From assembly GCF_900141665.1 (NCBI RefSeq), contig NZ_FQYI01000003.1:33501-97500 (forward strand): DNA of 64,000 nucleotides. The letters are read 5' to 3'. The notes beneath the pieces are model-generated. The model saw only the letters and a list, made by a program, of their open reading frames with translations, did no database searches and was not told the DNA's origin. Origin of the DNA: Cruoricaptor ignavus. Lineage in GTDB: Bacteria > Bacteroidota > Bacteroidia > Flavobacteriales > Weeksellaceae. Shown one piece after another: positions 1 through 59,416 of the stretch; positions within the stretch are counted from its first letter, which is position 1; the number at the start of each line of letters is the position of its first letter. The position numbers were made by a program, and so were the translations under genes.

Positions 1-936
<936 letters not shown>

Positions 937-1089: not shown

Positions 1090-4000
1090 TTACTCAACCG
1101 ATATTGTATAAAGAATTGGATTGTTGTCTTTCTTCCTTATTGGGAATTTATCAATAGCATAGATTTCGTCATAGCCGATATTTTCCACAGCGATCCAGCC
1201 GTGTTCGATGCCGGCATCAGGCCGTATGATTATTTTTTGGCTTCCGTTAATAAATTCGAAATAACGGTAGTGAGGTATGTTTCCTTCAATTAATCCAAAA
1301 TTTGGAAGATCAAATTCATTTTCTGCGATTGATTCTAAAAATTTATCCCTTTCCTCTGAGTTTTCAAATTCGTGAAAAAATTTGGAAGGTTTTTTCTGAT
1401 TTGCGAAATCCTTGATGTTTACTTTTACGCTCTCCAAATTGAATCCTGTTTTATCTTTTAGTTTTTCAAGGAACTGTAGCATTAGCAGCACAGCGAAGGG
1501 AGATTTTACATACCTGTCGTAATAGGCTGCCTGGTAAGTGTTTCCCGCCATTAAATCTTGTAAGTTGATTCCTTTTTTTGCTAATTCTTCTAAAACTATT
1601 TCTGCAATCTCATCTGAGTTGATTTCCTGGTGGGTTTTTATATAAATTTCTGCTACAGAACTTCCGGTATTGAAAGTAGGCTCTGGCACTTCGGAAAATT
1701 CCGGCAGTGATGCTTTGTGCAAAATGTATGAAGCTCCTGAAATAATTGCTCCCCAATTCTCATCCGGTTTATTGGAAAATTCCTCAGCGTAATAACCAAT
1801 TAACTCGCCATTCTTTAGCTTCATTATAGCTACGCGATGCAAAGGCAGGTTTTCTCCGGAAACCTTCAGTATGTTGCCATATCTTTCTGAAGTGAAAAAT
1901 GTAATTTTATCGTGCTGATTTCTATAAATAGGTTCATCGGTTATAACGAAATTTATTTTGGTATTTTCACTCAGGTGCTTTATGATTTTGGAGGATTCCA
2001 AATCCCAGTGCTCGAAATTGCTGTCTGTATAGAGCCATATTTCTTCAATATCATTACGGTAGATGTATTTGTTAATATCATCCCGCACATTTCCAATAAG
2101 TTTTTTAATGCCAAGCATTTTTTCGGCAAGTTCTTTAGGCACACTTTGGTCTAGCGCTCGCTTAAGCCAATCGATAGCAAGGTGCCTGTCCAGCCAATTA
2201 AGGTGATGATTTGAATTTCTATCGATTAGGCATTTGGTACAGGCAGTCTGGCAATCGCAGTTTTCAAGTTTGTTTAGTGATTTTTCCAGAATTTTTTCAA
2301 GATATAGTGAGAATTGTGGCGCATATCCTGCACCGCCGGTTGCTGTATCAAAAATGAACAGAGATGAATAGGAGCCATACTGTTTGAGGTTGAAACTGAG
2401 CTCCTGCTCGTCTATAGCCAAGTATTCAGCAAGCATTTTTGTGAACATAACGCCTAAGGAATACAGCAGCTTTTCATCGTTGGAAAAATTATTCCCTTCA
2501 TTTTTCACTCTGATTTCCACAAAATCTGTTTGGAATCTTCCGCCAAGAATTACATTATGTTTTATACTGTTGCCATCTCCGCTGCATATCGTGCCATCCT
2601 GATCTTTACCACCTCTCAGCCTTCGGTGGCTTTCCAGTTTTTGCGGGTCAAGTGATGCTCTCCCACAAACCAGGCATACTGAAAAACCATCGCCCTTACC
2701 TTTATTGTAGTATAGTATTTCTGCATTCCTATCGCTTTCTCTGATATCGATTAGTGAAGATTCATCGTTTGCCCAAGGCTTAATGTTTAGCAGTAGCGGC
2801 TCTACCGTGCTTAGACTGGTAGTTTCTTTTATTTTTCGTGATTTTTCGCTGTATAAATCTACGGCAAAACCGGCGGGCTCTATCAGTTCTGTAAAAGTTC
2901 CGGCTCCTCTAGTTGCCATAGATATGCCTACAAAGTCTGTGTGTTGGCAATTGGCGCAAGGTTGTTGTATGTTGTTTTCCTGGTCGCCCTCTACAACTCT
3001 TTGGTAGCCGCATTTTCTGCATTGTTGTACCACGGCGTGCCTATCCTGTCCGCCATAGATGTTTTGGGAAATAATTCCTCCCGAAATATATTTCCAGTTG
3101 TTTATTACAATTTCATTGCCTGGTGCATAGGCGGCCAAGGCTCTTGTAATGTGGTAGGACGGATTTTCTTTGTTCTGATTTTTCTTTAAATCATTTATCG
3201 TGGTGGTTTCAATTTCTACTAAGCCCGTAGGAATTCCTGCGCTTGGCGCGAAACCTTCTTCTACCAGGTTAGTAAGGGCATTCCTACTTAAGTACCGCCC
3301 CAACTGAAAATTTACCGCTTTGTAAGCTGGAGAATTTTCTCCATACTCTCTCCTAAGATTTTGCAGTGTATTTTCGAAATTCGTTTTTCTGGTTTCAGCC
3401 TTGTTTTTTAGTTTCTCAAAATTTTGTTTTACATTATGAATGTATGTTGAATTTTTCAGGCCTGCCATAGGTGTGCCTTTTGTAAGCTTTTCTATTTCAT
3501 TAGAAAACTCGGTATCTTTCAAATTGATTAACCAATCAGAGAATCTGTTTGCCAGCGGCTCTGCACCTTCAATGCCAAAGAAGAAAGTGTCAATGCTGTC
3601 TTTCACATTTACGCCACCAATCTCTTTTGATTGGATGAATTTTCCAAACAGCAGTGCGTTGATGTGCCGCGAAACAACTTCCGGGCTTCTGAACTGTAGC
3701 ATAGGTGGTGCAATCTCGTGTTCCAACGCCCACTTAGGATTGTTGAAAACATTATACCCAATAGGATTAGGAGTGCAAATGGTAACGGCAAGAGACTTCT
3801 GCTCCTGGCGCCTTCCCGCTCTACCGCTTCGCTGAAGATAGTTTGCAGGGCCTGGCGGCACATTGTTCATTAGCACCGTGGAAATCCCACCAATATCTAC
3901 ACCCATTTCCATCGTGGTGGAGCAGTTCAGGATGTTCAGCTTACCTTCGTTAAACTGCTCTTCAAGTTTCTTTAATGTTTTGTCGCTTTGTTGAGCAGAA

Positions 4001-6921
4001 TGCTCTCCTGCCAAGAACAATGGCTTTATATCCAAAACTCTTTCCTGAAGGTCGCTCCAAACGCCTTGCTCTCTGAGTGTTTTTGAATTTTCAGAAATCC
4101 ATATCCTCGTTTGATGGTGATTTTGTTCATTTTCACCATTCAAATTGAACGGATAGGGCAGTTTAGGAATATCAACTTCTTTAGTTATCCTGAAATTTTC
4201 TACATTCTCTGGCGTGAGCCCTCCAGTAATCCACGGTGAGTAACTGCGGAAATGCCTGTCTATCAGCCGCCGTTTTACCGGGCATAAATATGCTTTTGAA
4301 TTTATGCTGAATTCGCTCTTTTCCTCCAGATTTAATTGAAACTTATTTTTACCGGTATTTGTTAATAAATTCGCTTGTAATGTTTTGCGAATTTCAATAA
4401 TAAGTACATTGATTTGGTCAACTTTTTCTGGAGACAGATCTTCGTAATCGTGCCAACCGAGCCCAGCACAAATAAGCATTACAAGTCTGTTTTGCCGCTT
4501 GCTGTTCTCCTGCGCTTTTGGCCAGTCTTCCTCTTTTACTGTTTGATATTTCCGATAGAACCCGCTCGTTAATTGTGAAGCTGTCTCAGGGATGCTATAA
4601 TAAAATTTAGCTCTGATGAAGTAGTCTACGGTAATTTTCAATAAATCTTTCCATTCATCTATAGTTATTCCCAGTTCATTCGCGATTGCAGGGCGATTGG
4701 CAATGGCGTCAATTTTAGGGTAAGATAATGATACAAGTCCCAGATTCTCCAGAGAGTTTTCTCGTGGAAGCCTTCTGCCGAATTGGTCGTAAAGCAATGC
4801 GGTAAGGAAATCTTTCCAATTATCTCCGTATGTAAATCTGCTATCACTCAGGTTGTTTAAGAAAATGGTTTTCAGTTCGCTGCTTCTATCCAAATTAATT
4901 CTATATATTAAATCCTTCCAATTAATTTTGGGCAGTGCATTGTTAACTTTAGCTTTTTCTTTATCTATTTCCTTTTTCAGGTGATCTCTGATTATTTGCT
5001 TCTCTGCGTTATCAAACTGTTTCTGAAGGTAATGCAGAATAGAGTTTGGATCAGCATTTGGGTTTTCCCCGTTCTTAAGCAGAAAGTGGTAAACCATCGA
5101 TTTAATCCAGTTTTTTTCCGTGTCTTGATTTTGGAGCGCAGAAATTTTCGCGGTCCCCTGCCTGCTGTCAGTAAAGGAAATATATTTTCTACCTTCCCAA
5201 AGTGCTTTGTCATCATTTGTCGTTCCTTCCGTTTCCCCCAGGATAATATCGGAAAGAAGCCGATTAGTGAAGGCGGTAGACATCCTGAAGTGATAAGCAT
5301 TAGCGGCGCTTTCTCCGCAGAATGGGCATCTGTCAGGGACTTGGTGAGAGATTAAAAAACTTTTGCCATCATAATCTAAACGACCATCGGTTTCAATTGC
5401 ACAGGGACTATACGATTCATGGGCATACTTTTTATTTGGCAAATTAGGTAAAATGATGATTTTATTTCCTTTTTGCTCAGATATATTGTCTATTTCTTCA
5501 TCGTCTTCTTCCTCGTGAATGTTGAATGCCGTTCCATCTTCAATGGTAATCTGCCTGATTTTGTCTCGTTTGTCTTGTTCAAAAATCTCTCCTTCCATCA
5601 TATAATTTCCGCAGGATTTGCAGGAGATCAGTTCCAGCAAAGGCCAGCCGCATTCACAATTTTTGGCGGCAATGGTGTGCAGTGTTCCGGGTATATGCTT
5701 CGGCTTAAACTCTTTATGCTTTTCGCATTTTGGATTTGTGCAGCAGAATAGCCCACCCAAGCTTCTCAGAAAGAAATGTGCACGAAGCGGCACCGCATCG
5801 GTTTCCGATATAATGTCGGCAGATTTTAGAAGGTTATCCCTTAAATTAGCTGGTGAATAAGTCTCCAGATTTTGAAGAGGCATAAAGTTATTCTTAACTA
5901 TATCGCTTCGCAGTTGCTCTATTTTTTTAATATCAAATCGGCTGTCGGCCAGTTTGTTTTCGTCGAAAGTTTTATTTAAAACCCTTTTGCCTTCTATCAC
6001 GGCGATATTTTCTTCAGGAATGCCGCACAGGTTTGCCATAAATTTTTTCAGCGCATCATCGTTTCCGCTGCCTACGGTTGCCGAAGTAAGTGCAAAGCGA
6101 ATATCTTTTATATCTGTTTTAAATGCATCCACAAGCCTACGGATAAGTAGTGCCATCTCTGCGGCTGAAGAACCCGTGAGGGTGTGCGCTTCATCCAGCA
6201 ATATCCACCGCAATTTTCCCGCAGATTTCTCCAATATAGGGGTATCCTGCCTGCGAAGAAGAATGTACTCCAGCATTGATGGATTTGTGAAAAGGATGTT
6301 TGGCGGCGTGTCCCTAATTTTCTTCCGGGAAATCAGCTGCGGGTAGGCTTGCGAATCTTGATTATTCTTGCTGTTCTCCTCAGTTTTACTGTTGTACATG
6401 GCGTATGTTATGCCGCCAAGTTTTTGGCACCAGGCATCCATTCTCTTTTGCTGGCTGGCGATCAAGGCGTTTAGCGGATAGAGGAATATCGCATTAATGC
6501 TGTTGGAATTTTTACAGTTGGCATATAAATCTTGGAGAACAGGCAACATAAAACATTCTGTTTTCCCAGAGCCTGTTCCTGTAGTTACTACTATGGATTT
6601 TTTTTCATTAAGCAGTTTTTGCCAGCTTTGAACCTGGTGCTTGTAAGGCTTTCTGTCTTTTGGAAAGCGGTACTCACCCTTTACCTTATCAATGGCGGAA
6701 ATAAAATTTTTCTCAAAAATCTCAGGTGCATATTCTTCCATAAGCTTTTCAGCACTTTCCCAGGGAAAAGTGTTTTGCAGCACTGGCTCTGCAAGCAGAG
6801 GCTGATCTTTGAAAAGATATTCCAGGTAGCGCTGCATTTCTGCATCACCCATTGCCCAAAGTGCGTTGATGGAATCTTTCAGCCTGCCATCAACTTTATT
6901 GTAGAAATTATCGAAATTCAT
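1090..6921 (-). CDS. Large DEAD/DEAH-box helicase with DUF1998 region, putative defence protein
   Basis: A 1943-residue superfamily 2 helicase. The Walker A motif TGTGSGKT is at about residues 114-121, DEAH at 243-246 and SAT at 280-282. The second RecA domain has TMEMGVDIGG followed by QRSGRAGRRQ near residues 1006-1045. Putative zinc-binding cysteine pairs occur near 395-445, 535, 1300 and 1415. A cysteine cluster typical of DUF1998 (CDCQTACTKCLIDR) is near 1555. DUF1998 helicases include MrfA, a DNA repair helicase, and DISARM relatives. About 380 residues after that cluster match nothing I recognise. The start lies 2 nt after the stop of the upstream gene, so the two are almost surely co-translated. 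The DNA is visibly AT-richer than the flanking core genes, which suggests transfer. A role in phage defence is inferred from the pairing, not shown. Confidence 0.88.
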   Translation of the reverse strand: MNFDNFYNKVDGRLKDSINALWAMGDAEMQRYLEYLFKDQPLLAEPVLQNTFPWESAEKLMEEYAPEIFEKNFISAIDKVKGEYRFPKDRKPYKHQVQSWQKLLNEKKSIVVTTGTGSGKTECFMLPVLQDLYANCKNSNSINAIFLYPLNALIASQQKRMDAWCQKLGGITYAMYNSKTEENSKNNQDSQAYPQLISRKKIRDTPPNILFTNPSMLEYILLRRQDTPILEKSAGKLRWILLDEAHTLTGSSAAEMALLIRRLVDAFKTDIKDIRFALTSATVGSGNDDALKKFMANLCGIPEENIAVIEGKRVLNKTFDENKLADSRFDIKKIEQLRSDIVKNNFMPLQNLETYSPANLRDNLLKSADIISETDAVPLRAHFFLRSLGGLFCCTNPKCEKHKEFKPKHIPGTLHTIAAKNCECGWPLLELISCKSCGNYMMEGEIFEQDKRDKIRQITIEDGTAFNIHEEEDDEEIDNISEQKGNKIIILPNLPNKKYAHESYSPCAIETDGRLDYDGKSFLISHQVPDRCPFCGESAANAYHFRMSTAFTNRLLSDIILGETEGTTNDDKALWEGRKYISFTDSRQGTAKISALQNQDTEKNWIKSMVYHFLLKNGENPNADPNSILHYLQKQFDNAEKQIIRDHLKKEIDKEKAKVNNALPKINWKDLIYRINLDRSSELKTIFLNNLSDSRFTYGDNWKDFLTALLYDQFGRRLPRENSLENLGLVSLSYPKIDAIANRPAIANELGITIDEWKDLLKITVDYFIRAKFYYSIPETASQLTSGFYRKYQTVKEEDWPKAQENSKRQNRLVMLICAGLGWHDYEDLSPEKVDQINVLIIEIRKTLQANLLTNTGKNKFQLNLEEKSEFSINSKAYLCPVKRRLIDRHFRSYSPWITGGLTPENVENFRITKEVDIPKLPYPFNLNGENEQNHHQTRIWISENSKTLREQGVWSDLQERVLDIKPLFLAGEHSAQQSDKTLKKLEEQFNEGKLNILNCSTTMEMGVDIGGISTVLMNNVPPGPANYLQRSGRAGRRQEQKSLAVTICTPNPIGYNVFNNPKWALEHEIAPPMLQFRSPEVVSRHINALLFGKFIQSKEIGGVNVKDSIDTFFFGIEGAEPLANRFSDWLINLKDTEFSNEIEKLTKGTPMAGLKNSTYIHNVKQNFEKLKNKAETRKTNFENTLQNLRREYGENSPAYKAVNFQLGRYLSRNALTNLVEEGFAPSAGIPTGLVEIETTTINDLKKNQNKENPSYHITRALAAYAPGNEIVINNWKYISGGIISQNIYGGQDRHAVVQQCRKCGYQRVVEGDQENNIQQPCANCQHTDFVGISMATRGAGTFTELIEPAGFAVDLYSEKSRKIKETTSLSTVEPLLLNIKPWANDESSLIDIRESDRNAEILYYNKGKGDGFSVCLVCGRASLDPQKLESHRRLRGGKDQDGTICSGDGNSIKHNVILGGRFQTDFVEIRVKNEGNNFSNDEKLLYSLGVMFTKMLAEYLAIDEQELSFNLKQYGSYSSLFIFDTATGGAGYAPQFSLYLEKILEKSLNKLENCDCQTACTKCLIDRNSNHHLNWLDRHLAIDWLKRALDQSVPKELAEKMLGIKKLIGNVRDDINKYIYRNDIEEIWLYTDSNFEHWDLESSKIIKHLSENTKINFVITDEPIYRNQHDKITFFTSERYGNILKVSGENLPLHRVAIMKLKNGELIGYYAEEFSNKPDENWGAIISGASYILHKASLPEFSEVPEPTFNTGSSVAEIYIKTHQEINSDEIAEIVLEELAKKGINLQDLMAGNTYQAAYYDRYVKSPFAVLLMLQFLEKLKDKTGFNLESVKVNIKDFANQKKPSKFFHEFENSEERDKFLESIAENEFDLPNFGLIEGNIPHYRYFEFINGSQKIIIRPDAGIEHGWIAVENIGYDEIYAIDKFPIRKKDNNPILYTISVE

Positions 6922-6923
6922 TT

Positions 6924-9900
6924 TTATTGCAGTTTGTTGATGGAATACAAAAGTATTTGATTGTACCAGTTTTTATCCATTTCTCTTGCATAGAGGTAGT
7001 TTCGGCGGATTTTAAAACCATCTATAGAATTCTCCCAAATTTTTCGGTTTTTATCCTTGATGGAAAGGGCTGCAGCTATAGGAGCTTCTAGTAAAAGTCG
7101 GATTTTTTCGTGATCATCAGCTTTATGAATTAAAGTATCAACTTCCTCAAGATACCAATATGTTTTTGGGATTTCATTCAAAACTTGGTTGCCAAGTCTT
7201 TGCCTTAGCCCTTGAAGGTTTGCCGGAGTTGGCATTAAATGCTGCATATTTGACTGCGTAAAAATATCATAGCACATATTATTGATTTCTACCTTGGTGC
7301 TTTCTTTCAGGAAGGGTAATACTGCGGAGATTTCCACGGAAGCCCATCCTGCCGCTGAAATCCATTCTTTTTCCGGAACCCAGTGGAACAGGAACCCGGT
7401 ATCTTCTTCCAGTTTCCTCAGCTGATTATGAAATTCCTCAGCGTTTTGGTACGCTCTCAGTTTCTCATTCAAAAAGAAGAACGCTCTTGCGGCTACTTTT
7501 GGATTTATGGCCACAGTCCGTAAAATATCGAAGGCGGCAAACGGTAATTTATAATAATCGCAGGTTGTAAAATAAATGTTGAACTTATACCAGGCCTCGG
7601 AATCTATTTCGCTTTTCGAAAGCTCGTCAGCATAGCTACTAATTCTTTCAAGCCTATCATGCTCATCTGTTGGCACATTGTCCGGGTCGGTTGTTACAAA
7701 AATTGGCAGCAGAGTGCTTTGAGCATTTTCATTGCTCTCCACTACTAAAAATTTATCAGAAGGCAAGTTATCAGGGAACCGGAAAATACCATCAGTTTTT
7801 TCAAGGGAGATAGTGTCTATCTGTGATGCGCTGCAATCTAAAGGAATGGCGATAAGATCCGCCTCGGATTCCCTTTCAAAACGCAGAAGAGTTTCGTCGT
7901 TCTCGCAGCTTTGTTCCAATCTGTTATTGTATCGGCCAATGTTAAAACTGGCTGTTCTTCTTAAGTTATTGCGGTGATTTTCGCGAATTTCAAATAGGAT
8001 TTTGCAATCATCATCCATCAAATCAGAAATTGAAAACAACCTGCGAAAATCATTGAGATAATCTATAATCGGAATATTGCCTTTGGCACATTCTCTAATT
8101 ATTTTAATTTCACCATTGCAGGTATTGCTCATTCTTACAGAAACTTTCCCATTCTTCCTGTTTACCAGCCTGCAGCCGTGAAGGTCAGAGATATTTAGTT
8201 CTGAACGTTGGTTTACAATATTGTTCTCATTATCAATCACTTGGATGCCTTCAAAAGGCGGTGCAATTTCTATAAAAAGCGCCCTGTTGTCTTCCCTTGA
8301 TTTTAACGCGAAGCGTAGGGTTCTCGGGCTTTTTAGCCTGTTCGTCAAACTGATCTTAAATTCGCCATTGTTGATTTCTTCTATATCCCAGAGTTCATTT
8401 GGCTTTGGCTCAATAGAAAAATCAGCGCTGGCATGAAAGCTTATAGTGGCAGAATCCGTAGTGGCATCCTGATTTTGAATTTCAAGATTTCCAATGTTAA
8501 ATACCACAGCTTCCTCCATCATATTGCCGAAATGAATTCTTAAATATAGTAAGCCGTAGGGTAGGAATTCTTTTCGTTTGCGAGTTATCCAGTTAATTTT
8601 GTCCTTCGAATATTCGATCTTGCTTGCCTCAAAAGTTTTCTCATCATCGTCATCATCCACTTCATTTTCATCCCCACCTTTTTTAAACACATAAATATGG
8701 GATATCGTATTCTTTACAACATGAAGGTTGGATTTTATGATTTCCTGAGGTAGAATATCGGTAATAATTTGGAAATCAAAGGTTTGTGCGTTTGTTTTGA
8801 ATTCCTTGGTTTCTCCCGTTTCGTTGTATATCAGTGTTTCTGAGTCTTCTACTTCAATGGCTTGCAATTTCTGCCCATTGATGATTATTTCAGTTTGCTC
8901 CTTTTCGGAAGAAAAACCTTCTGGAAAAGTGAGCAGGGCTTCTTCCCAAGCTGTTTTGGTAGATTTTTCTAGAATGTATTCATCCTCAGATCTTTTACCC
9001 CAGTAGTTGGGCTGCGATGTCGATGGTAAGTGCGTTATTAAATTATCAACTCTGTACGAATTTCCTTTGCTGTCCATAAGGAAAACTTCCGGTAAAATGT
9101 CTTCATTATTCCATCTTACCATCGTAGAATTACTCCAGGTTAGGCTGTATTTGCCACCGATATTTTTATAAAAACTACAGAGGAGGTAATCTCCCACAAA
9201 AAGATTATAATGATTTGCAAGGTGGTCATCCATGTTTTTAAGCTCCCGAGAGAGATTTTTAAAGGATTTAGCATCCATAGATCCTGGTTCATTCGTAGCC
9301 AGCAAAACGATATAAGTATCTTCTTGTTTTTTGAGAATCCAGTCCGCCTTCAGTGATGTTTTTCTGGTGCGTTTCTCATTTTGGTTTTGAATATTGTTTC
9401 GTAAAAGTGTCCTTAGATTTTCTTCCAGATTATCGTAGCGTTCATCTGAATTTATACTTTTAATCAAATCCAGACTGCTGCGGTATACATACTCGTTACG
9501 CATACTTTTGGGCAAAAGCTTTACAAGGAAATAATCGGATTCAATGTCAGCCTCCGAGTCGGGATTCTTTCTCTGCAATTTTAAAAGAAAACGGGTATAC
9601 GAATCGTAATTATTACCACTTTTGATGTGATTTAGTGGTAGGCCTCCCTGAGAAAGCAGCGTGCGGAAGTAAAGTTTGTTCTGCCTTCTGATCCAAGCAA
9701 TACCGATTTTTTCAGCACCTTTCCGCGCATGTTTATAGAAATCTTCTGCGCCATAATCGGTGTTCAGTTCGAGCGATTCGTAGATTTTTTCTTTCGATGG
9801 AGTGCCGCCGCTGTATAAATAGCGCCACCAAAAAGCATAATATAAACTGGCATCTCTCGGATCAAGCCTTGCAAGGTAAGGCGTTTTTTTAATGTGAATA

Positions 9901-10022
9901 GAAAGAGTTGTGAATTCCTTTTCCGAAATGATAATCTGCTGGATAGACTTAACACTGTTAGCACTAATTCCTCGCTTGTCGAGTAAATCATTAAAGAAAG
10001 ACATGGTCTTATAATTTGACAT
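6924..10022 (-). CDS. STY4851/ECs_5259 (YjiT-like) family protein, partner of the helicase
   Basis: A 1032-residue cytoplasmic protein with no signal peptide or membrane segment. The N-terminal 160 residues carry ALYYAFWWR-like and LLSQGGLPL segments (residues about 58-70 and 123-131) that I recognise from the enterobacterial STY4851/ECs_5259 family. Those proteins are commonly annotated next to a large helicase; I recall this from annotation and have not searched. The middle has an acidic run (DDDDDE near residue 460). No catalytic motif is evident. An alternative ATG lies six codons downstream at 10004, because an 18-bp tandem duplication repeats the start region. The gene directly precedes the helicase and shares its AT-rich composition. 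Its biochemical role is unknown to me. Confidence 0.72.
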   Translation of the reverse strand: MSNYKTMSFFNDLLDKRGISANSVKSIQQIIISEKEFTTLSIHIKKTPYLARLDPRDASLYYAFWWRYLYSGGTPSKEKIYESLELNTDYGAEDFYKHARKGAEKIGIAWIRRQNKLYFRTLLSQGGLPLNHIKSGNNYDSYTRFLLKLQRKNPDSEADIESDYFLVKLLPKSMRNEYVYRSSLDLIKSINSDERYDNLEENLRTLLRNNIQNQNEKRTRKTSLKADWILKKQEDTYIVLLATNEPGSMDAKSFKNLSRELKNMDDHLANHYNLFVGDYLLCSFYKNIGGKYSLTWSNSTMVRWNNEDILPEVFLMDSKGNSYRVDNLITHLPSTSQPNYWGKRSEDEYILEKSTKTAWEEALLTFPEGFSSEKEQTEIIINGQKLQAIEVEDSETLIYNETGETKEFKTNAQTFDFQIITDILPQEIIKSNLHVVKNTISHIYVFKKGGDENEVDDDDDEKTFEASKIEYSKDKINWITRKRKEFLPYGLLYLRIHFGNMMEEAVVFNIGNLEIQNQDATTDSATISFHASADFSIEPKPNELWDIEEINNGEFKISLTNRLKSPRTLRFALKSREDNRALFIEIAPPFEGIQVIDNENNIVNQRSELNISDLHGCRLVNRKNGKVSVRMSNTCNGEIKIIRECAKGNIPIIDYLNDFRRLFSISDLMDDDCKILFEIRENHRNNLRRTASFNIGRYNNRLEQSCENDETLLRFERESEADLIAIPLDCSASQIDTISLEKTDGIFRFPDNLPSDKFLVVESNENAQSTLLPIFVTTDPDNVPTDEHDRLERISSYADELSKSEIDSEAWYKFNIYFTTCDYYKLPFAAFDILRTVAINPKVAARAFFFLNEKLRAYQNAEEFHNQLRKLEEDTGFLFHWVPEKEWISAAGWASVEISAVLPFLKESTKVEINNMCYDIFTQSNMQHLMPTPANLQGLRQRLGNQVLNEIPKTYWYLEEVDTLIHKADDHEKIRLLLEAPIAAALSIKDKNRKIWENSIDGFKIRRNYLYAREMDKNWYNQILLYSINKLQ

Positions 10023-10035
10023 GGTCTTATAATTT
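10000..10035 (-). repeat. Perfect 18-bp tandem duplication across the start codon
   Basis: Plus-strand bases 10000-10017 and 10018-10035 are identical (GACATGGTCTTATAATTT). Each copy carries one ATG on the minus strand. The two start codons are in frame and 18 nt apart, so initiation at either gives a protein differing by six residues. Confidence 0.95.
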
Positions 10036-10117: not shown

Positions 10118-10678
10118 CTACCTCACCCTCCCAGGATTCTCCTTTAAAAAGCTTTCCCAGCCGGTATATTTTTTATCGGAAACGGAATTTCCTGAATTGA
10201 AATGATGGCAAACCGCCACAGCCAATCCGTCCGAAGCATCCAGGTATTTCGTGGGGAATTCCTTCAGGTTCAGCAGGTTCTGCAGCATCCCAGCTACCTG
10301 TTCCTTGCTGGCGTTGCCATTCCCAGTTATGGCCATTTTCACTTTTTTCGGTGAATATTCTGTAATCGGGATGTCCCGGTGTAGCGATGCTGCCATTGCC
10401 ACGCCCTGTGCCCTGCCCAGCTTCAGCATACTCTGCACATTTTTCCCGAAAAACGGCGCCTCCAGGGCCACTTCGTCCGGATGAAATTCATCTATCAGGC
10501 TCAGCGTTTTCTCGAAAATATATTTCAGCTTGGTTTCGTGGTTCGGATATTTTTTCAGCAAAAGTTCGTGGATGGACACCAGCTGCATCTGCCCCTTCTG
10601 CACGGAAATAATGCCAAAGCCCATCACGGTAGTTCCCGGGTCGATGCCGAGAATAATCTTTTCTGGTTCGGTATGCAT
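10118..10678 (-). CDS. ruvC: Crossover junction endodeoxyribonuclease RuvC
   Basis: RuvC cuts four-way Holliday junctions symmetrically, acting with RuvAB in recombination. The 186-residue length is normal. The acidic catalytic residues are visible in ILGIDPGTT (Asp near 11), VALEAPFF (Glu near 72) and DASDGLAVAVCHH (two Asp near 147-150). ruvA lies far away in this window at 51729. A TATTTTTG box ends 4 nt before the ATG, so the mRNA may be leaderless. The helicase module lies just downstream on the same strand but has its own candidate promoter. Confidence 0.96.
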   Translation of the reverse strand: MHTEPEKIILGIDPGTTVMGFGIISVQKGQMQLVSIHELLLKKYPNHETKLKYIFEKTLSLIDEFHPDEVALEAPFFGKNVQSMLKLGRAQGVAMAASLHRDIPITEYSPKKVKMAITGNGNASKEQVAGMLQNLLNLKEFPTKYLDASDGLAVAVCHHFNSGNSVSDKKYTGWESFLKENPGRVR

Positions 10679-52339: not shown

Positions 52340-55300
52340 GTGTACAGTAGCAGCGTGAAACATACATTCAATAAATTTTTAGAGTGTGGAAGGCCGGCGG
52401 CAATCCGGATACTATTTTTACTGGTTATTAACCTTATTAATACAGCTGTAGCGCAGGAGCGCCCGCTGGACAGCCTCAGCATCCGGCAGGATTATACCCT
52501 GCCCAGCCCGGTACGCTACGAAGCCTATTACGATGTGGCTACAGGCAAGTACCACCTCTACCCGAAGGTCGGCAGCATCACGGTGGGGGCGCCTACCGTG
52601 ATGTCCCCGGAGGAGTACCGCGCCTATATGCTCAGCACGCAGCTGGCGGAATATTACCGCCAAAAATCCGATGATAATAATATCGTTTTCAGAAAGGACG
52701 AAAAAGAAGCTGAGAAGCGCGGCCTGATCCCGGCAGTGAAGATAAACAACCGCCTTTTTGAATCCATTTTTGGAAGCAATAAAATAGAGATAATTCCTCA
52801 GGGGTTCGCATCCTTCGACCTCGGCGCGCTGCATCAGAAAATTGACAATCCGATGATCCTGCCGCAGAACCGCTCCAGCTTTGCCATCGACATCCAGCAG
52901 AGAATCCAGCTGGGGCTTACTGGTAAGGTGGGGGACAATCTCCAACTCCGCGCCAATTACGATACGCAGAGCGGCTTCGCCTTTGAAAACAAACTCAATG
53001 TGGCGTGGCAGGCAAGAGGTACCTGGCGCGACCTGCAAAACAAAGGCCTGAACGACCGCACCACCGGCGGCGAGGATAAAATAATAAAGAAAGTAGAGTT
53101 CGGTAATGTGAATCTGCCTCTCTCTACCAGCCTCATCCGCGGCTCGGAATCGCTTTTTGGCTTAAAAACGCAGTTCCAGCTTGGGAAAACATTGGGTACC
53201 GTGGTGCTCTCCCAGCAGCAGGGGGAGGCGAGGAACATCGTGGTGCAGGGTGGCGGCGCGGTGCAGACATTCAAGATCAATGCCTCCGATTATGAAGATA
53301 ACCAGCACTATTTTTTAGGGCATTATTTCCTTGATAATTATGACCGAGCGCTGCAAGATTATCCGCTGATCAATTCCACCATCAGCATCAACAGGATTGA
53401 GGTCTGGGTGCTGGAGCAGGGCTCTGGCAATTTGCAGGAGCAGAAAAGCATTCTCGGCATCCGAGATCTCGGGGAAGGAGCATCGGGCTATCCGGACAAC
53501 TCGCAGAATGGCCTCTACCAAAATATCGCCGGGCTGGGCACATCAATCCGCGATGTGAATCTCGCATACAACGCCGTGCTTGGGCAGAATTTCCCAAATG
53601 CGGCGGGCGCTCCGGAACGCTATACCGACGGCGAGCAGTTTATTTTCAACCGCAGAGCCAGAAGGCTTCAGACCAATGAATTCAACTACAATCCTCAGCT
53701 GGGCTACATTTCATTAAACCAAAGGCTTAATGACAATCAGCTGCTTGCGGTGGCGTATTCCTACACTGTAAACGGGCAGAAAACTGTGTACAAAGTGGGT
53801 GAGTTCTCTGACGAAAGCCCGGTGCTTATCGTAAAATTACTGAAGCCAAACTCCACTGTTCGCACCTCCTCGCCCATGTGGGACCTGATGATGAAAAACA
53901 TCTACCCTATGGAGGCGAACCAGATCAGCGCCGATCAGTTTATGCTGAATGTGTACTACCGCGACAGCCAGGCTGGCAAGGTGAATTATCTCCCGGGGAC
54001 CGCCGTGCAGGATGTGCAGCTGCTGAAACTATTCAACTGGGACAGGCTGAACATTAATAATGATATGTCCGGCGATGGCGTGGCGGGAGACGGCCTTTTC
54101 GATTTCGTTCCGGGCATCACCATTAATGCCAATGATGGGAAGCTGATATTTACCAAAGCCAAGCCTTTCGGCTCTTATCTTGAAAATGTTCTGGGAAGCA
54201 GCGATCCGAAATTCGTTTTCAATGACCTCTACACTATGCAGAAGGAGGTGGCGGCGCAGCAAAACCTGGCGCAGCGCTACACCATCGAAGGGCGGTACAA
54301 GGGTGCGCAGGGGAGCGGCATTTCGCTGGGTGCCATCAATGTGCCCCGCGGCTCGGTAAAAGTGACATCAAACGGCCAGCAGCTGATGGAGGGTGTGGAC
54401 TACACCGTGGATTATATGCTGGGTTCGGTGAATATCATTAATGAGGCCCTGAAAAATTCTGGGCAGGCGATCAATGTATCGCTGGAAAATCAGCTGACTT
54501 TCAATACGCAGCGCAGAAGCTTTATGGGGCTGAACCTTGAGCGGCAGTTTAATGAGCGCCTCCTCCTCGGTACCACCATCGTGAACTATTCCGAAAAACC
54601 AATTACCCAAAAAGTAAACTTCGGCAATGAAGCGGTGAATAACACGATGGCAGGCTTCAACCTGATGTACAACAACGAATTCCCGTTCCTCACGAGGCTC
54701 ACGGATAAAATTCCGCTTGTAAAAACGGATGCTGCTTCGCGCTTGAATTTCCGTGCGGAGGGTGCCTACCTGATTCCTGGGCAGGATAAAAATGCAGGAA
54801 ATCAATCCTATATTGATGATTTTGAACAATCTTCTACCAAAATTTCCCTTAAAGAGCCGGGCTTGTGGGGGCTAGCATCCAAGCCTGAGCAAAACAGAAA
54901 CGATCCTCAGTATGCCAATGCCGGCCTGGTAAACGATGTGCGCGAGGGCTACGGCAGAGGGCTTCTTTCCTGGTATAATATCGATCCGCGCTTCTACGGC
55001 GTCGGCGGGAAAGCTCCGGCAGGCATCAATGCGGAGGCGGTTTCCAACCACGCATCTCGGCGGGTGCAGACTTCCGAGCTGATGAACAACCGGGATTTCG
55101 TAGCCGGAGAGCAAACCTACACCAACACGCTGGATATTACTTTCTACCCTAAAGAGCGCGGCCCTTATAACCTTAACCCGATTGACGAGCCGGCAAACCA
55201 GCGGTGGGCGGGGCTGATGCGACCTATTTCCGTGTCCAACTTTACCGGTTCCAATATCGAGTATGTGGAATTCTGGCTGATGGATCCCTATGCTGACGGG

Positions 55301-58300
55301 CGAAATCTTGGTGCCTCGCCAAAATTGAAACTCCACCTCGGGAATGTTTCTGAGGATGTGCTGAAAGACGGCAAACTGATGTATGAAAACGGTATGCCTA
55401 CGGCCTCCAGCGCGGTTTCTACATCCACCAGCAACTGGGGCGTTCAGCCGAACCAGTTCCCGGTACTGTACGCCTTTTCCACCGAGGGCGAGGAGCGCCG
55501 CGCGCAGGATGTAGGCTACGACGGGCTGAACAATGAGCAGGAAGCGCAGAAATTCGGTACCGGATACATTAATCCGATAACTGGGGAGCCCGACCCCGCG
55601 GCGGATGATTTCGTTTTTTATCTTTCTAATAAATTCACCGGCGCGCAGGCGTCTTCCGTGCCAGAGCGGTACAAATATTTTCGCAACCCGGATGGCAATT
55701 CCCAGTCCGGATCGCTGGAAGTAGCCACGCAGATGCCAGATGCTGAGGACATTAACCACGATTATAACCTTGATCTTAATGAAAACTATAACCAATACAC
55801 CATAAACCTCGACAGGAACAGCCTCGCAGTCAACAGAAATTTTATTGTTGATGAAAAAGAAGTTCCCGTGCGTTTCCAGAACGGACAGAAGGGCAGGAAT
55901 AAATGGTACCTATTCCGCGTGCCAGTGCAGCAGTTTGATACCAATGCCGGTGCGGCTTCCGAGGATGTATTGAATAATGTACGCTTTGCGAGAATCATCC
56001 TCGATGGCTTCGATGATACGGCAACGCTGAGGTTCGGTACGCTGGATCTTGTACGCTCCGAGTGGCGGAAGTACAACAAAAATATTGCAGCGGGCAGCCT
56101 TCCGGGTGCTGCTGATAACGAAGGTTCGATGCTTGTGGACAATGAGAATTTCTTCGTGGGCAGCGTAAATCTGGAGGAGAATGCGCTGGGGGCGCCGCCT
56201 TATGTGATGCCTCCGGGCATTGATCGCCAGGTTCTGCAAACGGCTGGCGGTATGCAGCGGCAGAATGAAGCATCCCTTTACCTTAAAGTTACCAACCTGA
56301 AAAACGAGGCGCGCGCTGTGGTAAAAAATACCTTTGTGGATATGCGGAGGTACCGCAAGCTGGAAATGTTCGTACACGCCGAGGACATCCGCGGTGCAGG
56401 AACTAGCAGCCAGCTGGATCGGGATATGAAGTTCTTTGTGCGTTTCGGTAGCGATGCCACGGATAATTACTATGAGTACGAAGCCTCTTTGAAATATACT
56501 CCGCGTACTGCCAGAACTGCCACTGAGATCTGGCCGCTGGAAAATATGGTTAATATCAACCTCCAGGATTTTGTAGACGCCAAAATAAAAAGAGACCAGG
56601 CCGGCGGAAACCTTATTGGCAGCAGGTTTCTCTATGCCGAGGCAAGCGACGGCGACCGGAAGATATTCGTGAAAGGCCGCCCTGTACTTGGGAATATTAC
56701 CACTATGATGATCGGGGTGCGCAATACCTCCGGCGTCGGCAAAGATGTGGTACTTTGGGTAAACGAAATGCGCATCTCCGGAATCGAAAATGAGGGAGGC
56801 TACGCGGCGAATGCCAGCCTGGATTTCAACCTGGGGGATTTTGCAATGGTGAATGCCGGCGGGGCGTACTCCACGGTAGACTTCGGGAGCATCATCTCAA
56901 AACCTGCCGAGCGGAACCAGAGCACCAATTCTGCGCTGAACATCAGTACCACGGTTAATCTCGATAAATTTATCCCGGAAAAGGTAGGGATGCGGATCCC
57001 GGTAAATTACACCTATGCCCAAACCATCGAGGATCCTAAGTACAACCCAATCGATATCGATGTAGAATTCGAAAAGGCGGCAAACAGAGAGGAGCTGAAG
57101 CAGGTCGCGAGAACTTACACGCAGCAGCGCAGCATCGGTGTGGTGAATATGCGTAAGGAGCGTACGAACACTGAGCGGAAATCCCGCTTTTATGATGTGG
57201 AAAACCTGGCGCTTACACTGAATTACAGCGATGATTACTACCGGGATGTCTACACCACCAAAAACTATCGCCAGTATCTGAGAGGCAATCTGGATTACAA
57301 CTACAGCTTCCGGCCGTGGGTGCTGAAACCGTTTAATAAAATGGTGAGCGATACCGCAAAATCCGCGAAATATCTGCAGTGGTTTAAGGAATTTAATTTC
57401 AACCCTGTGCCTACGAGAATCTCTGTGCGTACGGAGCTGGACAGGAATTACAACGAGCTCCAGTTCCGGAATATTGAGGCGCTGATGAACGGCGTCGCCG
57501 GCTCAGACTTCGATGTGATCCGCAACCGCGCGTTCTACTTCGGGTGGCAGTATGCTGTAGGTTTTAATTTTACAAGGTCATTAAAGCTGGAGATCAATTC
57601 CGCTACTAGGACTTTGAACGACAATATCAGCCCGACTGCGATGGACAGCCGCAGCATTTTCGAGCAGCCTTTCCGCTCCGGGCGCCCCGTGCTTTACAAT
57701 CACAGGGTGCAGCTGAATTACCGACTGCCGTTTGAGTATCTGCCATTTATGAACTTCCTCACTGCGGAGGTGGGCTACGGCTTCCAATACAACTGGAACG
57801 CCCGCTCTACGGTGCTTACGCAAAGCAATGCCGGGAATCTGGGGAATCTCGCGCAGAATACCAATACGATTGTAGGCACGGCGACTGCCAATATACCGCA
57901 GTTCCTGAATAATTTCGCCTACTTCAGGAAGATAGAGGAGGTAAGGAATAAGCGGCGCCAGGAAATCGATTCCCTGAATAACGCCTATGCAGAAAGCGCC
58001 CTGAAGAAAAGCAAAAAGAATAAGTTTTTCGTATTTAATACTTACAAAGGTTATACTTTCAAAAACCGCCTGACACCGATGCAGACTATGGCTTCGGCGT
58101 TGTTTTCAGGCAGGCAGCTTGATATTAATTATAATGAGAACAACGGCACGGTGCTTCCTGGCATATTGAGTTCACCGAATTTCTATGGCTACGGGCAGAA
58201 TATCGGCGGGCCTACAGCTGGCTTCCTGCTCGGCTCGCAGGCGGATATCCGGAGAACGGCCATCGAGCGCGGATGGATTTCTTCGTCTCCATATATGAAT

Positions 58301-59416
58301 GATCCCTATTCGCAGCAAAATTCAAAATCTTTCGATGCAAACCTCCAGCTCAGCCCGCTGAACGATTTGAGAATAGATATCAATGCGCTTTGGAGGCACA
58401 ACAGAAACCTCATGCAGGGAGGCTACAACCTAGATGCCGATCCCGCTACGCCGCATTTTGATTTTGCCTTCGAAAACGAGCTGGTTACTCATTCCAAATC
58501 TGTTTGGCTGCTATCTACTTCATTTAAAAATTCAGGAGATTTATTCCCGAGAATTATTGAAAATGCTAGAGCGCTCTCTCAGCAAATGGGCACGGTGCCT
58601 GGTGCGGCAGGCTTCGCTCAAGGATATTCATTGGGGAATGCGTATATACTGGTGCCTGCCTTCCGAGCAGCAGTGGAAGGGCGCAGCCTGGAGCCCATGG
58701 ACAACCCGAAAAAATCCGGCTTCCCGTTGCCAAACTGGAATGTCGTTTATTCCGGCTTCCGCAACCTGCCGATGGTGGCAAGTCAGTTCTCTAAATTTGA
58801 CATCCAGCATTCCTACAAATCCACCTATACGGGTACGGGGGTGCAGTCGAACATCGATTACTACAACGATCCTGGCGGGTTTGATGTAAATGGCGACAGG
58901 CTCAATCCTTATATTTTCAGTCAGGTAGGCTATGTGGAATCCTTTGCCCCGCTTATCGGAGGAGATTTTACGCTTAGGAACAATATGCAGTTCCGCGCGA
59001 TGTACAACCGCGACCGAATGCTGCTCCTTGGCTTGGTAAACAATACCCTTACGGAGGACTACAGCAAGGAATATGTCTTTGGCTTCGGCTACATCGTGAA
59101 GGATTTAAGGATGAAACTCAATATGGGTGGCAAGCCGCGTAATGTTGTAAGCGACCTGAATGTCCGCGCAGATTTCTCTCTTAGGGATAGCGAAACACGA
59201 ATTACCAACATACTCCTGGAGGATTCTCAAGTCACAGGCGGGCAGAAACTTCTGGGGATAAAATTCAGCGCGGATTACAATGTCTCCGAAAATTTTAACC
59301 TGAGATTCTTCTACGACCAGCTGGCTACCAAATACAAAATCTCCACAGCCTACCCGCTCTCCACCATTCGAGCGGGGCTCTCCGCTACCTTCAATTTTAA
59401 CGGCGGCATAAGATAA
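52340..59416 (+). CDS. sprA: Type IX secretion outer-membrane translocon SprA (SovA)
   Basis: A 2358-residue outer-membrane protein, close to the length of other SprA proteins (about 2400). It forms the very large beta-barrel through which T9SS cargo passes. I take GTG 52340 as start because no ATG precedes the signal peptide (IRILFLLVINLINTAVAQ, near residues 23-40). Two SprA-type N-terminal modules are visible (LQLRANYDTQSGFAFENKLN near 196-215 begins the first). The C-terminus ends in a barrel strand (LSATFNFNGGIR). An intact gene implies a working T9SS; the other T9SS genes are not here. Confidence 0.96.
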   Translation: MYSSSVKHTFNKFLECGRPAAIRILFLLVINLINTAVAQERPLDSLSIRQDYTLPSPVRYEAYYDVATGKYHLYPKVGSITVGAPTVMSPEEYRAYMLSTQLAEYYRQKSDDNNIVFRKDEKEAEKRGLIPAVKINNRLFESIFGSNKIEIIPQGFASFDLGALHQKIDNPMILPQNRSSFAIDIQQRIQLGLTGKVGDNLQLRANYDTQSGFAFENKLNVAWQARGTWRDLQNKGLNDRTTGGEDKIIKKVEFGNVNLPLSTSLIRGSESLFGLKTQFQLGKTLGTVVLSQQQGEARNIVVQGGGAVQTFKINASDYEDNQHYFLGHYFLDNYDRALQDYPLINSTISINRIEVWVLEQGSGNLQEQKSILGIRDLGEGASGYPDNSQNGLYQNIAGLGTSIRDVNLAYNAVLGQNFPNAAGAPERYTDGEQFIFNRRARRLQTNEFNYNPQLGYISLNQRLNDNQLLAVAYSYTVNGQKTVYKVGEFSDESPVLIVKLLKPNSTVRTSSPMWDLMMKNIYPMEANQISADQFMLNVYYRDSQAGKVNYLPGTAVQDVQLLKLFNWDRLNINNDMSGDGVAGDGLFDFVPGITINANDGKLIFTKAKPFGSYLENVLGSSDPKFVFNDLYTMQKEVAAQQNLAQRYTIEGRYKGAQGSGISLGAINVPRGSVKVTSNGQQLMEGVDYTVDYMLGSVNIINEALKNSGQAINVSLENQLTFNTQRRSFMGLNLERQFNERLLLGTTIVNYSEKPITQKVNFGNEAVNNTMAGFNLMYNNEFPFLTRLTDKIPLVKTDAASRLNFRAEGAYLIPGQDKNAGNQSYIDDFEQSSTKISLKEPGLWGLASKPEQNRNDPQYANAGLVNDVREGYGRGLLSWYNIDPRFYGVGGKAPAGINAEAVSNHASRRVQTSELMNNRDFVAGEQTYTNTLDITFYPKERGPYNLNPIDEPANQRWAGLMRPISVSNFTGSNIEYVEFWLMDPYADGRNLGASPKLKLHLGNVSEDVLKDGKLMYENGMPTASSAVSTSTSNWGVQPNQFPVLYAFSTEGEERRAQDVGYDGLNNEQEAQKFGTGYINPITGEPDPAADDFVFYLSNKFTGAQASSVPERYKYFRNPDGNSQSGSLEVATQMPDAEDINHDYNLDLNENYNQYTINLDRNSLAVNRNFIVDEKEVPVRFQNGQKGRNKWYLFRVPVQQFDTNAGAASEDVLNNVRFARIILDGFDDTATLRFGTLDLVRSEWRKYNKNIAAGSLPGAADNEGSMLVDNENFFVGSVNLEENALGAPPYVMPPGIDRQVLQTAGGMQRQNEASLYLKVTNLKNEARAVVKNTFVDMRRYRKLEMFVHAEDIRGAGTSSQLDRDMKFFVRFGSDATDNYYEYEASLKYTPRTARTATEIWPLENMVNINLQDFVDAKIKRDQAGGNLIGSRFLYAEASDGDRKIFVKGRPVLGNITTMMIGVRNTSGVGKDVVLWVNEMRISGIENEGGYAANASLDFNLGDFAMVNAGGAYSTVDFGSIISKPAERNQSTNSALNISTTVNLDKFIPEKVGMRIPVNYTYAQTIEDPKYNPIDIDVEFEKAANREELKQVARTYTQQRSIGVVNMRKERTNTERKSRFYDVENLALTLNYSDDYYRDVYTTKNYRQYLRGNLDYNYSFRPWVLKPFNKMVSDTAKSAKYLQWFKEFNFNPVPTRISVRTELDRNYNELQFRNIEALMNGVAGSDFDVIRNRAFYFGWQYAVGFNFTRSLKLEINSATRTLNDNISPTAMDSRSIFEQPFRSGRPVLYNHRVQLNYRLPFEYLPFMNFLTAEVGYGFQYNWNARSTVLTQSNAGNLGNLAQNTNTIVGTATANIPQFLNNFAYFRKIEEVRNKRRQEIDSLNNAYAESALKKSKKNKFFVFNTYKGYTFKNRLTPMQTMASALFSGRQLDINYNENNGTVLPGILSSPNFYGYGQNIGGPTAGFLLGSQADIRRTAIERGWISSSPYMNDPYSQQNSKSFDANLQLSPLNDLRIDINALWRHNRNLMQGGYNLDADPATPHFDFAFENELVTHSKSVWLLSTSFKNSGDLFPRIIENARALSQQMGTVPGAAGFAQGYSLGNAYILVPAFRAAVEGRSLEPMDNPKKSGFPLPNWNVVYSGFRNLPMVASQFSKFDIQHSYKSTYTGTGVQSNIDYYNDPGGFDVNGDRLNPYIFSQVGYVESFAPLIGGDFTLRNNMQFRAMYNRDRMLLLGLVNNTLTEDYSKEYVFGFGYIVKDLRMKLNMGGKPRNVVSDLNVRADFSLRDSETRITNILLEDSQVTGGQKLLGIKFSADYNVSENFNLRFFYDQLATKYKISTAYPLSTIRAGLSATFNFNGGIR

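Follow-up and report, generated by a model that had tools for sequence, protein, structure and literature searches.

The window analysed here, a stretch of 64,000 nucleotides from Cruoricaptor ignavus, contains two long genes, druH followed by druE, which lie adjacent on the minus strand with a 2-nt gap between guaB and ruvC (Table 1). A previous sequence-only reading had placed genes of 1943 and 1032 aa in this interval, and open reading frames occur at exactly these positions, both full length and free of stops. The region had also been described as visibly AT-richer, which is real but modest: in 1-kb windows, the GC content is 0.35-0.44 over the pair vs 0.51 in guaB, but the DNA to the right of the pair, mostly at 0.43-0.49, also shows a dip to 0.37 at 14.5-15.5 kb. 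An exact 18-bp tandem duplication (GACATGGTCTTATAATTT x2, window positions 10000-10035) spans the start of druH and results in two in-frame ATGs (MSNYKTMSFF). As the DruH proteins of relatives start at or near the second of them, the true start of the window gene may be position 10004. Elsewhere in the window, a 2358-aa ORF (52340-59416) was judged by eye to be SprA-like (gliding or secretion protein).

Table 1. Features of the druH-druE locus, in window coordinates; residue numbers are those of the window proteins unless E. coli is named
Feature	Position	Strand	Remarks
guaB (3' part)	19..936	+	Left flank; Aligns at 78% to the relative without the insert (G001)
druE	1090..6921	-	1943 aa; DruE helicase-nuclease
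C-terminal double PLD-like nuclease region, residues 1586-1943	1093..2166	-	Candidate active site D1802, H1884-x-R1886, R1900-x-D1902
DUF1998/MZB zinc-binding domain, residues 1493-1565	2227..2445	-	Cys 1555/1557/1561/1564 invariant in 30/30 Bacteroidota DruEs
Helicase motif VI QRSGRAGRR (R1034, R1038)	3808..3834	-	Invariant in 30/30; corresponds to E. coli R1135/R1139
SF2 helicase ATPase motifs	6184..6579	-	Walker A GTGSGKT (K120), R160, DEAH (D243/E244); identical in 30/30 Bacteroidota DruEs
druH	6924..10022	-	1032 aa; DruH-like, relative of the YjiT/STY4851 family; proposed phage sensor
DruH N-terminal block around RTLLSQGGLP, residues 112-129	9636..9689	-	Aligned to essential residues of E. 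coli DruH
ruvC	10118..10678	-	Right flank; Aligns at 74% to the relative without the insert (G001)

The helicase matches the PADLOC model DruE3 (PDLC00036) over its full length (2107 bits, residues 1-1942) and retrieves the structure of E. coli DruE (9tu7) with E=3.7e-196. Pfam confirms the DEAH helicase and DUF1998 domains proposed earlier, the latter as MZB (PF09369, E=3e-12). Its partner matches the DruH3 model (PDLC00045; E=4.2e-36, residues 26-888), as do 23 of the 23 aligned Bacteroidota DruH relatives, and DruH has been described as the type III-specific component of Druantia (PMC13192584). A PDB search with the single DruH sequence gave nothing useful, but a profile of the Bacteroidota DruH family did find the E. 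coli DruH structure 9tud (E=5.7e-21). The YjiT-like character previously proposed for the N-terminus of this protein is detectable with the STY4851/ECs_5259 (YjiT) model NF038336 of NCBIfam (E=2.5e-19). At 68.7 bits, the match falls short of the curated cutoff of 150, and its best-scoring stretch is residues 520-890, not the N-terminus; a shared N-terminal block does appear in the alignment to E. coli DruH. The E. coli protein, which has been assigned to the YjiT family (PMC13192584), is itself a full member of NF038336 with 977 bits, which indicates that the YjiT lead points to DruH itself.

Judged by these matches, the two genes encode a Druantia type III system (DruH-DruE), a known two-protein phage-defence type and not a new kind of system. 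The suggestion that they form one defence module with a YjiT-related partner holds. On the other hand, the module can no longer be regarded as unclassified: PADLOC already covers Druantia type III, and there is cryo-EM work on the E. coli system (PMC13192584) and genetic work on that of Mycolicibacterium (PMC13316683). The absence of a Bacteroidota characterisation still stands, as no experimental study of a druHE member from this phylum was found in the literature searched. The identity of the pair is settled: it is a Druantia III from Flavobacteriales, divergent and apparently intact. Novelty is limited to the lineage of the host and to how far DruH has diverged (19% identity to the E. coli protein), with no new defence principle.

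Membership in another system based on a YprA-family helicase (DISARM, Dpd or ARMADA) is barely credible. A YprA-type helicase is common to all of them, and the window protein indeed shows weak matches to DpdJ (about 94 bits, the best non-Druantia PADLOC model) and to DrmA (47 bits), but these are dwarfed by the full-length DruE3 score, DruH is specific to type III, and the genes next to the pair include no drmB, drmC, dpd or methyltransferase-type partner. The three systems were rejected on the basis of these scores and of the neighbouring genes, and the DruE3 and DruH3 matches contradict them. The earlier comparison with DISARM holds at the family level only: in place of a split drmA and drmB with drmC and a methyltransferase, the window has a single fused helicase without such neighbours.

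The closest point of comparison among characterised systems is provided by E. coli Druantia III (9tud, 9tu7; PMC13192584), which shows the same order druH-druE and a YprA-type DEAH helicase carrying DUF1998 and, at its C-terminus, two PLD-like domains. In the reference pair of the E. coli plasmid NZ_CP127005, annotated as STY4851/ECs_5259 and DEAD/DEAH helicase, DruH has 1119 aa and DruE 2104 aa, again in this order and beside ZorA2, ZorB2 and ZorE; wherever ATPase and ssDNA positions were checked, the numbering of PMC13192584 agrees with this DruE, except for residues 97 and 1536, which read differently. The window proteins are 29% (DruE) and 19% (DruH) identical to their E. coli counterparts, and the window DruE is ~160 aa shorter. 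The Druantia III of M. smegmatis (PMC13316683) is likewise a two-component DruH-DruE system, in which the helicase and DUF1998 motifs are required, but its DruE has 1667 aa and, according to its authors, no canonical nuclease domain, whereas a PLD region is present in the DruE of the window. Within the Bacteroidota, the plasmid NZ_CP033935 of Chryseobacterium balustinum carries the same pair in the same order, with a DruE 45% identical to that of the window.

In the alignment of the window DruE to that of E. coli, K120, R160, D243 and R1034 correspond to E. coli K121, R165, D251 and R1135, whose mutation abolishes defence (PMC13192584), and the ssDNA contacts N156, R207, N221, Y227 and R231 are conserved between both proteins. 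In contrast, R1258, R1372 and R2075, also needed in E. coli, align to N1163, Y1256 and P1927 and are not conserved. Regarding the C-terminal region, the structure model of residues 1586-1943 (pLDDT 90.7) finds its best matches mostly in the phospholipase-D family, including PLD3, Tdp1, SauUSI, NgoAVII R protein and NucT, with low TM-scores over the whole model. Druantia III DruE has been described as having a pair of PLD-like domains (PMC12458937), with which these folds agree; the last of the two is the one expected to carry the active-site residues. As D1802, H1884-x-R1886 and R1900-x-D1902-x-G are invariant in 30 Bacteroidota DruEs, this invariance together with the modelled fold suggests that H1884 and R1886 would be catalytic.

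In DruH, the N-terminal block keeps T121/L122 and G126/G127 at the positions of E. coli T131/L132 and G136/G137, and among the Bacteroidota relatives G126/G127 are invariant (23/23) and T121/L122 near-invariant. Of the remaining N-terminal residues reported as essential in E. coli together with these four (W88, W115 and E75; PMC13192584), the two tryptophans align to K77 and I106 in a poorly aligned stretch, and the E75 position is not kept. For R1064 and K1067, which contact the nucleotide, the window protein shows no aligned counterpart at 19% identity, a level that makes the alignment unreliable beyond the N-terminal block. More generally, several of the E. coli assembly and DruH dimer residues are not conserved in the window proteins. 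In the structure model of DruH (mean pLDDT 78.9), helical regions at the N- and C-termini enclose a chain of beta-domains; the 50 Foldseek matches listed were proteins with Ig-like chains at low TM-scores, and E. coli DruH 9tud was not among them. This predicted helix/Ig-like/helix layout is consistent with the published E. coli DruH, which contains Ig-like domains (PMC13192584).

A scan with one genome per GTDB species gave 31 DruH loci, all in Bacteroidota, and DruE directly follows DruH on the same strand in 30 of them; in the remaining one, the contig ends inside or just past DruH. The trees of DruE and DruH have been reported to be congruent (PMC13192584), and the nearly one-to-one pairing seen here is in agreement with this. 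For the 30 pairs, with mean identities of 49% for DruE and 36% for DruH, the distances of both proteins correlate with r=0.976 (0 of 2000 permutations as high), a value that is not corrected for shared host descent. Such co-diverging natural pairs offer a comparative set for the phage-sensing surfaces of DruH and for the residues linking DruH and DruE.

The two genes form one mobile module with a patchy distribution, and the pair is no general neighbour of ruvC. Neither of the two findings named beforehand as refuting the sequence-only reading, a lack of YjiT-like similarity and a universal, vertically inherited pair, was thus obtained. DruE occurs in 6 of the 198 genomes of Weeksellaceae (one copy broken) and in 3 of the 395 genomes sampled from the phylum, that of the window included, whereas DruH occurs in 7 of the 198, one of them marginal. 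In the relative G001, guaB and ruvC are convergent and only ~0.1 kb apart without the pair, compared with 9.2 kb in the window. The comparison of this interval proposed in the sequence-only reading does not fix the boundary to the base, as homology does not extend past the gene ends; moreover, the presence of a single genome from the genus of the window means that insertion and loss are not fully separable. The interval is variable across the family (L050, L052 and L053; G001, G004 and G012): in G004 it measures ~1.8 kb and includes a DUF4407-like gene, and in G012 it holds ~5 kb with other genes. Insertions may be tolerated at this site. No tRNA lies near the pair, and visual inspection of the window ORFs showed no integrase; repeats or a target-site duplication flanking druHE were not convincingly detected, and a viral contig collection yielded no DruH relatives.

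A housekeeping role in DNA processing, inherited vertically next to ruvC, would fit an intact pair between core genes, but it is extremely improbable and was rejected in view of the sporadic distribution and the empty guaB-ruvC site; in addition, the other copies lie elsewhere, one on a plasmid and several by WYL regulators and type I restriction genes. Proximity to defence genes is observed for copies in relatives, C. balustinum-type loci among them, but not for that of the window, which stands alone among core genes with no defence island around. A WYL-domain regulator, absent from the window, is found near druHE in the Weeksellaceae loci L051:4002-5000, L055:6252-7343, L057:6593-7582 and L061:5922-6911, adjoining druH in three of these loci and located beyond druE in L055, which suggests that this regulator is optional for Druantia III. 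Next to the druE of the closest relative, the region L054:5030-8689 encodes a ShosA/DprA-like homologue (PADLOC E=2e-45), together with HAD/phosphoribosyltransferase-like and exonuclease VII-like proteins, both named by eye, and is possibly another defence operon.

The relative G001 also offers an example of decay. Its druHE copy (L051:5125-11307) is broken, with druH stopping near residue 231 and druE, from residue 274 on, fused in frame to a transposase-like N-terminus. Three more full-length copies of this N-terminus exist in G001, a Pfam search with the piece gave no named family, and the arrangement looks like a deletion mediated by an insertion sequence. A similar fate as an inactive remnant is very unlikely for the window pair, whose genes are full length and free of stops, with intact catalytic residues; judged by its sequence, the locus is intact and probably active. 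All in all, there is little doubt that the window carries a complete Druantia type III anti-phage system, a two-gene cassette acquired downstream of ruvC whose mechanism would be that of its characterised relatives.

Regarding this mechanism, E. coli DruE works as a dimer: it is a helicase with 3' loading, assembles on long stretches of ssDNA and cuts DNA. DruH probably senses late phage structural proteins and has a nuclease activity that depends on its dimerisation (PMC13192584), and the mycobacterial pair blocks the circularisation and replication of phage DNA (PMC13316683). A stable DruH-DruE complex was not seen in E. coli (PMC13192584), whereas an interaction of both proteins is required in M. 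smegmatis (PMC13316683). By analogy with the E. coli and mycobacterial systems, the most likely scenario for the window pair assigns to DruH the sensing of a late phage structural protein, and to DruE the unwinding and cleavage of the phage DNA. The process would start with the recognition of a baseplate, tail or internal virion protein by DruH, a protein built of helical ends around an Ig-like chain. Activated DruH would then nick or otherwise expose the phage DNA, and DruE would load on the 3' ssDNA, translocate and assemble. Finally, the C-terminal PLD domain of DruE would cut the DNA, and phage DNA replication or maturation would be blocked. The conserved parts of both window proteins support the same general scheme.

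A possible, though not favoured, alternative is that the pair is Druantia III-like but functionally divergent, with a different DruH trigger or coupling and without the nucleotide-dependent dimer or the RecBCD step. This would be a variant of the preferred reading, and the confidences given to both overlap. The low identity of DruH to the E. coli protein, the non-conservation of R1064/K1067 and of several essential N-terminal residues, and the non-conserved DruE residues needed in E. coli all point in this direction, and a phylogenetically distinct Druantia III-like branch has been described (PMC12458937). Moreover, no RecD over the cutoff was found in the genome, indicating that any dependence on RecBCD may differ from that of E. 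coli. A ZorA2 query of the genome, run without a positive control, found no homologue; neither the RecBCD nor the Zorya link need hold here. These points, and the place of the window copy outside a defence island, also count against the preferred reading. That the Bacteroidota branch as a whole is activated or coupled differently, with other DruH triggers and without a nucleotide-bound C-terminal dimer or RecBCD, is rather doubtful. Against a functional divergence of the window pair speak the conserved GGLP and T-L core of the DruH N-terminal surface and the conservation of the tested ATPase, motif VI and PLD residues of DruE, which also keeps the PLD-like region that is mostly missing from the III-like branch (PMC12458937).
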